Shown here: positions 2,550-7,041 of the stretch, in pieces
Layout of the letters: each line of letters starts with the position of its first letter
How positions within the stretch are numbered: position 1 is the first letter of the stretch
Assembly: GCA_028456385.1 (NCBI GenBank)
Contig: JALNQF010000038.1
Coordinates: 186,001-250,000, forward strand
Length of the DNA stretch: 64,000 nucleotides
Reading direction: 5' to 3'
Source: Ophiosphaerella korrae
Taxonomy: Eukaryota > Ascomycota > Dothideomycetes > Pleosporales > Phaeosphaeriaceae
Notes under the pieces: generated by a model
What the model saw: the letters and a program-made list of their open reading frames with translations, nothing else
The model's database searches: none
What the model was told of the DNA's origin: nothing
Program-made: the position numbers and the translations under genes

Positions 2550-3631
2550 ATGTTTGTGCCGCGCGCTTTGAGGCTCAAGGGTGTCCGCGAAGGGACAAAC
2601 ACGAATTCGCATACATCACCCCATGAGCACACTGACTCTGCAGCCCCTAGCCGTGGCCCTAGATTTACAGTCAAGCCAGTTACTCCAGAGTACCTTGCTC
2701 AGCTGGTGGCTGGCGTAGAGCTCATATTCTCCGACTACGCACATGAGGAGGATGTGCGAGCAGCATGGCTACAGCAACGGTACAGGACGGTGGATGGAGA
2801 GCGCACATGTCTGTCGGTGCCGCTTCATGGTTCAAGACGACCTACTAATCCCATGCCATAGTCATCCACCTTTCAGCTGTGCTGGAGCATCCAAACACCT
2901 CAACCTTGAAACCACAAGCAACCCAAATCTTGCTCCAACAGGCGTTGCGAGAACATGCCTCCGAGTTACTCGAGCTCGCCAGCAACGGCTACTATGTCCG
3001 CCGGAAGCCATCGTCTTACCCTCCTAGATTCCTAGCCCCCAACTCATTTCAATCTGCCAACGATGATGGCTTATCCTTCTGGGACCAACGTACCGTATAC
3101 GTTGAGCCACATCTGCGCAACATCTGCCAAACTCCCGCAAAGCTGACCCACTGGCTTAAGGAACATGGCCAATTGAAATCCAAGTGGTTACCTATTCAGG
3201 CTGTACACGTGCTTTGGAACAGTTGTGCATTTGTCATATTCAGTGGCAGTGTCATGCATGAAGACACCTGGCTCAAGTGGAGAGCGACAGGAAAGCCAGA
3301 CAACTGGAACATCATGACCAAAGCCGAACATACAAAACGTACCGCCGAGTACGTCGCATTGCTCGAGATGCAAAATCCGAATGGCATGCGTAAGGTTGCA
3401 GTTGATAATGCGACGCTCCCAGCCATCGCAAGGCCAGCAGTTCTAGCAATGGAAATCGACCTTGTCGCAAATCATCCAGTAACTCCCCCCCTGCCCAAGC
3501 AAAAACGAAAGCGCAACAGAAGAAAACGACCAGATACGGATGACCAGAGTGAAAATTTTGAAGTTAATGACGGTGATCCTACAGCCAAAGCAGTGCAAAA
3601 CAACAGACCGAACAGCAAACGTCAGGCCTGA
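2550..3631 (+). CDS. Possible La-module RNA-binding protein (LARP7/Pof8-like?)
   Basis: Two exons, 2550-2808 and 2862-3631, give 342 aa. The intron has donor GTCTGT, branch CTAAT and acceptor TAG. Residues about 45-125 (LVAGVELIFSDYAHEEDVR ... ASNGYYVRRK) resemble a La-motif winged helix, where canonical forms read QVEFYFSD...DG..VRR. After that, RTVYVEPH ... HVLWNSCAFVIFSG looks like strands 1 and 3 of an RRM. The C-terminus is basic (PKQKRKRNRRKRP) and then hydrophilic. The arrangement recalls La/LARP7 proteins, which bind RNA polymerase III transcripts and, as S. pombe Pof8, telomerase RNA. I recognise the pattern but not the exact orthologue, so the function is tentative. The non-consensus donor also leaves the intron edges uncertain. 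Confidence 0.6.
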
Positions 3632-4070: not shown

Positions 4071-4075
4071 AAAAA
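4061..4075 (-). terminator. Pol III T-run terminator of tRNA-Lys
   Basis: Read on the minus strand, TTTTT (4075-4071) and TTTTTT (4066-4061) follow seven nucleotides after the tRNA 3' end, as expected for RNA polymerase III termination. Confidence 0.7.
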
Positions 4076-4081
4076 CGTAGC

Positions 4082-4209
4082 CGCCCGATGAGGGACTCGA
4101 ACCCTCAGCCTTGAGATTAAAAGTCTCACGCGCTAACCAATCTGGAGGGTGTGTTAGGTACTTGGAATGGACCTAGAGTCGGTGGGATAACTTACTGTGC
4201 CAACCGGGC
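4082..4209 (-). tRNA. tRNA-Lys(UUU) with a 54-nt insert in the D-loop
   Basis: The minus strand gives acceptor stem GCCCGGT pairing with ATCGGGC (one G-U), discriminator G, anticodon stem TGAGA/TCTCA with loop CTTTTAA (anticodon UUU, Lys), and T-arm GAGGG-TTCGAGT-CCCTC. The D-arm is split: 14 nt (GCCCGGTTGGCACA, 4209-4196), a 54-nt insert (4195-4142), then ATTGGTTAGCGC. The insert begins GTAAGT, contains CCTAAC 12 nt before its end, and ends CAG: the full signal set of a spliceosomal intron. There is no insert at the canonical 37/38 site. Removing the insert at GT/AG leaves the ordinary D-loop AATTGGTTA and a 74-nt tRNA; A15 can pair with U48. One D-stem pair (A12-C23) is mismatched. The A box is interrupted and the B box (GGTTCGAGTCC) is intact. 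Confidence 0.85.
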
Positions 4210-5184
4210 TTTGAATGGGCAGTTGCAGACTTTTACAATATAGATAGTACATTTTTTTCACGCGTCTTTTGTGCTGCTGTGTATCCTCGCCGTGGGGATT
4301 CCCGGTAGAATGTACCGCGGGGCACACAAAGAGCGAGTCATCAGTGCTTGTCCATGAGCGGCTGGTGGGGCTCGGAGAGAATTCGGCGAACCGCGGTGCA
4401 AGATGGCAGCACTGCGTGACTGCCTCGGACTTTGAATTATGAACCCTTGAACCTCATCTTCGAAATCGGCAGTCTGATACACCTGAAGAGCCGGACTATT
4501 GTCTCAGAGCATGCTGTGTTGTCTACCGAAGTGTTCGCTTCATAATGCAAATAAGCGCATGGTATTCAAAAGTAACACACTACTTGCATGCCTTGCCCAC
4601 TGCAACTCTCTAGGAGAATATTAAGTCCAAAAAGACGGTTCTCAAGCTGCAAGTATCACAAATCTAATCTCGATGGCATGCGAACGCCTCCAAACCCATC
4701 CCAAAGGGGTAAGGGCAATTGAACTAGGCAGACAAGTTAACTGAGCAGGATTTGCCTCCAGGATAGGGCAAGATGGAATGATTGGATGCCCACCTAGGGA
4801 CTAGGGGCGGGCCCTAGAGTGTGATGGAGTAGAGTCTTAGGGTATAAAAATCATTTCGTATTCTGTGTGAAAGCCTCGCACCGTCTGTTCTAACCTGATC
4901 CTCCCACACATATCCAGCACCGCAACGCTTTTTCCATGGAGAAACACAGTGCCTAGTCACATACAACGCCGTCTATGCCGCCATGCCCATTTCAGTGCTA
5001 ACTAGAGGCTTGAAATCAAATTAAAGGTGGTGCAAAAGAACTCCTCGAAAAAGAAGGGTTATGGAAATGAAGCGTGACCTTTTGTGAAATACAGGTGGCG
5101 AAAGAGCAGTAAAATGATAGAAGTCAGGGAAATATGAGGGCACACCTCGAGGGGACCGACTGCAAAATGCTGGCGTTGCACAGC
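4210..5184. other. Intergenic region without recognisable gene
   Basis: About 1 kb, moderately AT-rich. Short ORFs on both strands are not convincing. I see no repeat or RNA gene here. Confidence 0.5.
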
Positions 5185-6030
5185 TTAGATACGCTGAGGC
5201 TCAGGCCGTCGACCTACGGAAACATGCTGTCGCCGATGTCTCCTCTCCTCCCTCTCCCGCCGAGCCCCTCTCCCATTTGTCTCAACAAAGTTACCTGGTG
5301 GGTGTTCAAGGTTATGATTTCCGCCGTTCAGCTCTTTTAAATCCTGAGCATCTATTAGCCTCTTTCGCCAGAGGTGGTAGAACAGGCCAAAGTCAGGCCT
5401 CGAGGTCCTCAATGTTTGCCCAAGCATGGTATGCTCACGGGCTAGATGTCGCATTCTGGCACTCCAACTTTCCCGGCCACTTTCCGAAGTAGTGGCCCAG
5501 TCGCACAACGGACACTGAACCGACTGTGGCGGCTCTTCGCCCCGAAAGTGGCTCTCGCAATGCATCACCCATTCCTCTTGGTTGGGAGATATGTAGGCAC
5601 AATTCAAGAACCAGAAGGTGCATTCGTACACGGGCATGCGTGTCTGTGCGGGTGGGAGCTCCAAGACGCCGTTGTTTTCCTCGAGCAAAGGCACGCCAGT
5701 AAAGTGACTTGCAAGGCCTGTGCTGATTGACGTTTCCGTAGGCGTGGCTTCGGTGAAGTAGGAGCACAGCGACGGCGGGTGTGCAGAGGCAGTCGGCTGG
5801 TGGATCAAAGCAGGCGCCATGGACGAAACACAAGACCCGCTCGGAATGGAACAGGAGTAATGTTCTTGCCGCGGACTCGAGGGCCCGGTGATGGAGTTGT
5901 CCCGTCCTTCGGTTGACTCGAGGTCAAAATGCACGCCGGCAAGGCGAGCGTGGATGTTCGTCGCAGATTGGCGCACCCAATGTTCCGTCTCGCGAGTAAC
6001 GATACTTCGTGGTCTTGCTGAGCTCGACAT
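5185..6030 (-). CDS. C2H2-like zinc-finger protein
   Basis: Open frame of 281 aa from the ATG at 6030; codons further upstream are open only to a GTG. The N-terminal half is Ser/Thr/Pro-rich and probably disordered. About residues 150-225 hold two irregular fingers: YECTFWFLNC ... WVMHCESHF, then VQCPLCDWATT ... MRHLAREHTM, giving C-x5-C...H-x3-H and C-x2-C...H-x4-H spacing. A basic C-terminus follows (RGARREREERRHRR). This finger pair is seen in many fungal proteins of unknown role, probably DNA- or protein-binding. An additional upstream exon cannot be excluded. I cannot name targets. Confidence 0.65.
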   Translation of the reverse strand: MSSSARPRSIVTRETEHWVRQSATNIHARLAGVHFDLESTEGRDNSITGPSSPRQEHYSCSIPSGSCVSSMAPALIHQPTASAHPPSLCSYFTEATPTETSISTGLASHFTGVPLLEENNGVLELPPAQTRMPVYECTFWFLNCAYISPNQEEWVMHCESHFRGEEPPQSVQCPLCDWATTSESGRESWSARMRHLAREHTMLGQTLRTSRPDFGLFYHLWRKRLIDAQDLKELNGGNHNLEHPPGNFVETNGRGARREREERRHRRQHVSVGRRPEPQRI

Positions 6031-7041
6031 GGCAATGCGAGAGCTGGTGGGATCGTCTGTGGCGCAGCCTGCCTCAGCCTCGTTATTAGAGAAGCGCACG
6101 CAGTTCCGCCTTGTGGAGAGGTATCTGGAGCTCGCAGGGCAGACGAATCAAAACGCAGGTAAGGAGAGCTTGTTCACAACTGGATTAGGTGAAGCTACCA
6201 CTACTAAGAGATATGGCAGGTCAACAGGGTTGAGCGGCCAACAAGGCAGTATGTTCGCAATATCGATTTTAGTAGCCGTCGCCGGACAACGCTGCTGCAC
6301 AAGAAGCGCGACCGAGAGAAGCTCAAGTACTCGCCCACCTTTGCGGCTCTGTGGCCGGCGGGGCATCCCCACTGCCATTGCTCTCGTCAAATTACTTCGA
6401 CACATATCATTGGCAGCCGCCAAACATCACCCAGCTAAGTAAAATAACTAGAGCAACTCCCCAAGCGCCCCAGAGCGACGCTCCAAACCACTGCAAACCC
6501 TATTACTATTTCCATCACATATAACTTACATCTGCGGGGTTCCGAAGATCTCTTGCCCCGCCCGTAGGCGACTGTATCACCACGGAAGCACCTTTTTGTT
6601 TTGAAGATTCCATCGCCATGCTCGCGACATTGTTTTTCCATATATACCGATACCTTCGAAATGTTTAGCATAAAGCCTACGGAAGTTGCGCCGAGTGGCT
6701 GCGTGGTCAGAGTGGGCATCATAGGGTTGATGAGGAAATACAACGCTCTGATTTGGAGCCCATGCTGATTGTTACGCAAGTCGTCCACACCTACGCTGAA
6801 CTTTATGTCCCATCTTTTTCAGGCCACGTATCTCTGCGATATCTCTGAAGATGCTATGAGACACAGCCAGCTCATACTCAGTACCTAAAGCTCGAAATAG
6901 ATTAGAGAGCCTCTAAGTCTAGATTAGTTAGCACTAATAAGTAGATCTAGATATAGAAGTTACTATAATATAATTCTATTATTTTTAAAAATAAATAAAT
7001 ATATATATATATATAAGCTTATATTATAATAATAGACTTTA
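6031..7041. other. Intergenic region grading into AT-rich DNA
   Basis: No supported gene. From about 6,890 the sequence becomes very AT-rich and ends in an (AT)n tract at about 6,999-7,014 directly before the transposon. This marks the left edge of the accessory island. Confidence 0.5.

Follow-up and report, generated by a model that had tools for sequence, protein, structure and literature searches.

Probable introns with spliceosomal signals in nuclear tRNA genes of Ophiosphaerella korrae

Textbooks keep the splicing of mRNA, which belongs to the spliceosome and Pol II, apart from the splicing of tRNA, which belongs to an endonuclease and a ligase. Introns of the mRNA type are found in U6 RNA, including that of fungi other than Schizosaccharomyces pombe. 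In S. pombe itself U6 is a Pol III RNA, and its U2-type, mRNA-type intron is removed by the spliceosome (PMC10484740). The inserts described here resemble the U6 intron as apparent U2-type introns of a short Pol III RNA and differ from it in that the host is a tRNA and that several genes are involved at once. The U6 gene of the present genome appears to be intronless, as its single match (C185:41983-42081, plus strand, 99 nt) leaves no room for an intron. In lichen-forming ascomycetes, spliceosomal introns leave Pol I transcripts of the nuclear rDNA, and they do so after transfer into yeast as well (PMC8527467). These introns, which are ectopic and of U2 type and measure 57 bp in the tested case, likewise reside in structural RNA genes that are not made by Pol II, whereas their host is a Pol I rRNA rather than a tRNA, and the main text of that paper does not contain the term 'tRNA'.

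Ectopic tRNA introns have been described from archaea, nucleomorphs and Cyanidioschyzon merolae. Like the inserts reported here they lie outside the 37/38 position, and several may occur in one gene; however, they are removed by an endonuclease via a BHB motif, whereas our inserts display GT-AG ends and a branch site (PMC4090602). Those of Guillardia measure 3-24 nt, and their mode of removal is given as unknown in the same review (Yoshihisa 2014), which treats nucleomorphs and C. merolae as exceptions to supposed pseudogenes and whose available text lacks the string 'spliceosom' (PMC4090602). Kanai 2015 sets mRNA introns against tRNA introns, each with a machinery of its own (PMC4390854), and the available text of Soma 2014 has a single mention of spliceosomal introns, which concerns protein genes (PMC3978253). 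Among open-licence PMC papers we found no description of spliceosomal introns in tRNA.

The window analysed here is a stretch of 64,000 nucleotides (contig C312, 186001-250000) from the O. korrae genome, which comprises 63.03 Mb in 974 contigs. An initial annotation of the window had described a tRNA-Lys(UUU) gene with an insert that starts with GTAAGT, contains CCTAAC, ends in CAG and sits after nucleotide 14, away from 37/38, all of which is borne out by the sequence (Table 1). The spacing of CCTAAC, put at 12 nt from the end, requires a slight correction, since eleven nucleotides follow the element and the distance from the branch A to the insert end is 13 nt. Exact excision at GT/AG produces GGCACA-ATTGG and the D-loop AATTGGTTA, with A15 and T48 as claimed. 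The proposed similarity in length to protein-gene introns holds for two 55-nt coding introns of the window, both of which keep the frame at the junction; one (47160-47106) lies in a gene read as argininosuccinate lyase and the other (49044-48990) in a gene read as a signal-peptide-peptidase-like protein. The Rfam tRNA model matches 4142-4082 with 39.3 bits, and hence only the part behind the insert together with the last insert base. ARAGORN makes no tRNA call in the entire window, the interrupted gene included, and returns tRNA-Lys(ttt) when the insert is removed. Our analysis confirmed that the insert is real and that the phenomenon is larger than first claimed.

Table 1 Features of the interrupted tRNA-Lys(UUU) gene (window positions) and of six further interrupted nuclear tRNA genes (contigs)
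Feature	Location	Strand	Size or insert	Remarks
tRNA-Lys(UUU) gene	4082..4209	minus	128 nt with insert, 74 nt without	Rfam, ARAGORN, sequence
5' exon, nt 1-14	4196..4209	minus		acceptor 5' strand, D-stem 5' strand, A-box first half TGGCACA
GT-AG insert	4142..4195	minus	54 nt, after nt 14	GTAAGT 4195-4190, branch-type CCTAAC, CAG 4144-4142
3' exon	4082..4141	minus	60 nt	remaining D-loop, D-stem 3' strand, anticodon arm (TTT), variable loop, T arm, acceptor 3' strand, discriminator G
B box GGTTCGAGTCC	4093..4103	minus		intact
TATAT, 5' of the gene	4238..4242	minus		at -33
T5 run, 3' of the gene	4071..4075	minus		at +6, Pol III terminator-like
T6 run beyond the T5 run	4066-4061	minus
Lys-CUU	C168		50 nt, after nt 11	GTAAGT...GCTAAC...CAG, three bases earlier than the Lys-UUU site
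Gln-CUG	C52		50 nt, after nt 11	identity by our reading
Cys-GCA	C18		53 nt, after nt 23
Pro-UGG	C973		50 nt, after nt 33	identity by our reading; site read as between anticodon bases 34/35
Leu-CAA	C126		48 nt, after nt 85	identity by our reading; site read as the junction of variable arm and T stem
Thr-UGU	C534		59 nt, after nt 22

Inserts of 48-59 nt also interrupt six other nuclear tRNA genes (Lys-CUU, Gln, Cys, Thr, Pro and Leu), again away from the 37/38 position. The interrupted genes surfaced through a Lys anticodon-arm search, a search for a B box with a T run and an Rfam tRNA search; none of these selects for intron signals. The Lys anticodon-arm search returned three places, namely the window gene, an uninterrupted Lys-CUU gene (C201) and the interrupted Lys-CUU gene. 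GT-AG inserts off 37/38 are present in at least seven genes (7 of the 39 nuclear tRNA loci read) and occupy six distinct sites, nucleotide 11 being common to two. The 39 loci consist of 34 tabulated ones (including a locus on C274 described below), two extra Ile-AAU genes, Arg-ACG on C201, Thr on C534 and Ala-CGC on C334, and are counted apart from the mitochondrial-type contig C92, a mitochondrial-type Val on C2 and the tRNA-like sequences of five further contigs. Some locus names are our own where ARAGORN disagrees (e.g. Asn on C50). Chiefly because like inserts occur independently in these six other tRNA genes, the sequence strongly supports reading the window locus as a Pol III tRNA gene with an intron of the mRNA type.

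The signals of the inserts are uniform. All seven begin with GTNNGT (GTAAGT in five, GTTAGT in Cys and GTACGT in Thr), contain a CTAAY whose branch A lies 10-14 nt before the end, and terminate in YAG, and their lengths fall in the same class as those of the two coding introns. With criteria that were fixed after the inserts had been seen, 200,000 letter shuffles of each insert yielded no match for Lys-UUU, Lys-CUU, Gln or Cys, two for Pro and one each for Leu and Thr. The motif by itself (GTAAGT N20-50 CTAAY N4-14 AG) is only mildly enriched in the window, where it occurs three times against a shuffle mean of 0.58, with 7 of 100 shuffles reaching three. The weight lies instead in the agreement of its start and end with the demands of tRNA structure and of the nearest homologue. 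Two patterns combining GTAAGT, CTAAY and a B box matched 13 and 12 places in the genome against 5 and 7 in the controls, and at least 5 of these 25 places are tRNA genes, all of them already known.

Introner elements of fungi would spread introns into many genes. The seven inserts differ from such elements in having no common sequence outside the signals: none of the 21 pairwise scores rose clearly above those of shuffled cores, the lowest shuffle count being that of Cys and Thr (12 of 200 shuffles reach the score). A single mobile or introner family was rejected as a source, as near-identical copies are absent among the seven inserts. The search for further insert copies compared six of the inserts with the collected tRNA loci.

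Insert-free homologues within the genome allowed the excision boundaries to be compared for four genes. Against the Lys gene on C201, the GT-AG cut of Lys-UUU is the sole best of 429 excisions, and against the Lys gene on C390 that of Lys-CUU is the sole best of 418. For Cys, compared with its homologue on C57, the GT-AG cut is among three of 407 that yield an identical perfect product, and only one of these three has both a GT start and an AG end. For Thr, two of 407 other excisions fit the homologue on C20 better, and by our reading the gene's own D-stem pairs under the GT-AG cut. Across the four comparisons, each with about 400 excisions, the GT-AG cut accordingly ranks first in three, alone or jointly; for Gln, Pro and Leu there was no homologue in hand. 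A D-arm template score, which uses no homologue, placed the GT-AG cut on top of 246 cuts in each of the four genes tried, alone in Lys-CUU and together with 15, 13 and 3 others in Lys-UUU, Gln and Cys, respectively.

The inserts might alternatively be non-canonical tRNA introns of the kind seen in nucleomorphs and Cyanidioschyzon, cut by the tRNA splicing endonuclease, with the GT-AG signals being incidental. Anticodon-loop introns are indeed numerous in this genome, ARAGORN marking an intron in 17 of the 28 tabulated loci without a GT-AG insert. The fungal endonuclease, however, measures from the mature tRNA body, which the inserts would disrupt, and none of the seven insertion points in Table 1 is at 37/38. 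Certain D- and T-arm introns of algal tRNAs are removed even though many have no defined BHB motif (PMC4090602, PMC3978253). In the six inserts other than that of Thr, the BHB central helix at GT/AG reaches at most 2 of 4 pairs, against 1-3 of 4 in four ordinary-intron controls. With boundaries shifted by up to 4 nt, inserts and controls both total 7-8 of 10, and this measure does not tell the inserts from ordinary introns. Endonuclease cleavage would leave the GTNNGT, CTAAY and YAG of all seven inserts unexplained, and these intron signals appear to disfavour it; we regard it as very unlikely.

Ordinary eukaryotic introns at 37/38 coexist with the inserts in this genome and differ from them in position and signals. 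By inspection, five of the seven interrupted genes (Gln, Cys, Pro, Leu and Thr) also possess such an anticodon-loop intron, whose limits in Gln, Pro and Leu are placed as they appear in our reading. ARAGORN was run on spliced and unspliced versions of the six interrupted genes other than Thr. The interrupted Lys-CUU gene is named Lys(ctt) when spliced and wrongly when unspliced, and the Cys gene is found only after removal of the insert, with no anticodon-loop intron marked. Removal of the insert gives Pyl(cta) for Gln, Leu(taa) for Pro and Val(cac) for Leu, each with a residual intron, while the unspliced Leu gene is called Leu(caa). Since ARAGORN missed the window gene and the unspliced Cys gene and misnamed Lys-CUU, tRNA finders can evidently overlook or misname such genes. 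Minimum-energy folds from RNAfold of the spliced sequences gave a full cloverleaf for Lys-CUU, a structure without a regular D-arm for Lys-UUU and no cloverleaf for Gln and Pro.

Runs of at least four T begin within 23 nt downstream in all 34 tabulated loci, and runs of at least five T lie behind all seven interrupted genes, with six T at Thr. TATA motifs occur within 70 nt upstream of six of the seven (Cys has none within that distance) and of 18 of the 28 other tabulated loci; because of this wider occurrence they are a trait of the gene class and not of the inserts. At the window locus the tRNA structure without the insert, the B box and the terminator-like T run are all present. The A box is split by the insert, as the initial annotation had stated, yet by our reading the first bases of the intron extend its first half to TRGYNNAR. 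The A box is split in three genes, and in each the first intron bases seem to complete the element (TGGCACAG, TAGCGTAA and TAGTGTAA), which is a possible reason why these sites were tolerated. Runs of four T are absent from six inserts; avoidance of such runs was rejected as proof of Pol III transcription, given that only 9 of 51 other intron-like stretches contain one.

A further possibility is that a Pol II transcript contains the tRNA and undergoes splicing, after which RNase P and tRNase Z release the tRNA. A Pol II precursor would be a normal substrate for the spliceosome. The TATA element and the T5 run of the window gene nevertheless stand where those of other nuclear tRNA genes here do, and no listed open reading frame of at least 150 amino acids covers the gene, the neighbours lying at 2879-3631 and 5185-6099. 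We consider embedding in a Pol II transcript highly improbable and favour direct transcription by Pol III.

Anticodon-arm and pattern searches identified no second nuclear Lys-UUU gene among the places read, a set that stands apart from C634:17700 and from seven loop places with room for an intron. The loop CTTTTAA at the proper distance from a B box was found at five places against three in the control, namely the window gene, C92, two places whose text is not tRNA-like and C634:17700; when room for an intron was allowed, it was found at seven places against three. A further Lys search gave two matches, the window gene and the Lys-CUU gene on C201, and missed the Lys-CUU genes on C168 and C390, so it was not exhaustive. 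The window gene is probably the sole nuclear Lys-UUU gene, and because no second one was identified it is probably needed. The third Lys-CUU gene (C390:204500-205600) has an ordinary 36-nt anticodon-loop intron, and the three Lys-CUU genes therefore show three architectures, with no intron on C201, a GT-AG insert in the D arm on C168 and a 37/38 intron on C390.

These data also bear on the proposal that the interrupted genes are dead tRNA copies struck by introns or random DNA, with no functional splicing. The tRNA consensus at position 18 is G, and the Pro gene has a C there; in addition, insert-free homologues exist for Lys-CUU, Cys and Thr-UGU. According to the 2014 review, short D- or T-arm insertions in eukaryotes usually affect a single gene among many synonymous copies, and such genes are presumed to be pseudogenes (PMC4090602). 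The A12-C23 mismatch of the window gene, offered by the initial annotation as a warning of decay, does not serve as such, because the D-arm (GGCACA...TAGCGCG) is shared with the Lys-CUU gene on C201, which is uninterrupted. Random insertions, moreover, would hardly bear GT, a branch site and AG seven times. The intact B box and T run of the window gene, the recurrence of the insert and the likely uniqueness of Lys-UUU disfavour dead copies as the explanation, which we hold to be just as improbable as a Pol II precursor.

The census of tRNA genes is a lower bound, 63 of 1896 candidates of the Rfam search having been scored, and on this basis tRNA genes are few for a 63-Mb genome. The nuclear tRNA genes read do not include, for instance, those for Phe, Tyr, Trp, His, Gly-GCC and Val-AAC, which may hold further inserts. 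An early B-box pattern, too strict at position 60, matched 13 places against 24 in the control. Seven places from the B-box searches were rejected on reading as not tRNA-like; another eight were read, of which three are tRNAs (Arg-ACG, Thr-UGU and Ala-CGC) and five are not. The reading of B-box and T-run places covered the matches listed apart from C135, C523 and one place on C223. A locus on C274 (28900-30000, 323-553, plus strand) is tRNA-Ser-like by our reading, with fitting ends and T arm and a long insert that has neither GTAAGT nor other signals; it gives a weak match to the tmRNA model (22 bits, below the family cut-off). Contigs C35, C171, C477, C656 and C769 contain tRNA-like sequences, and those of C477, C656 and C769 have TTAAGTATTAA-rich flanks that closely resemble one another and give the impression of a repeat family derived from a tRNA. 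A mitochondrial-type tRNA-Val copy on the 568-kb contig C2 (112442-115513) is close to copies on C92.

We consider it very probable, judging removal by the signals of the inserts, that U2-type spliceosomal introns reside in working Pol III tRNA genes of this fungus. The B box, the first half of the A box, which is retained, and the upstream TATA element would recruit Pol III, whose product would be a pre-tRNA holding the 54-nt intron. The nuclear spliceosome would then excise this intron at GU/AG by way of the branch site CCUAAC, and cloverleaf folding, end-processing and modification would follow only after its removal. At least six further tRNA genes would take the same route, and in five of them the tRNA endonuclease and ligase would have to take out a second, ordinary intron.

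Seven GT-AG introns in the tRNA genes of one genome would join mRNA splicing and tRNA splicing. If this interpretation is correct, spliceosomes accept Pol III transcripts that are uncapped and very short, introns sit inside internal promoters, and translation capacity is coupled to spliceosome activity. The finding also bears on the origin of new spliceosomal introns, for example by reverse splicing into any nuclear RNA. It is likely that spliceosomal introns have broadly invaded the nuclear tRNA genes of this fungus, in the D arm, the anticodon and the variable arm, so that part of the tRNA set, apparently including the only tRNA-Lys(UUU), would depend on the spliceosome and some tRNAs would need two unrelated splicing machineries in turn. 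The sequence evidence thus suggests that the fungus needs its mRNA-splicing machinery for some of its tRNAs.
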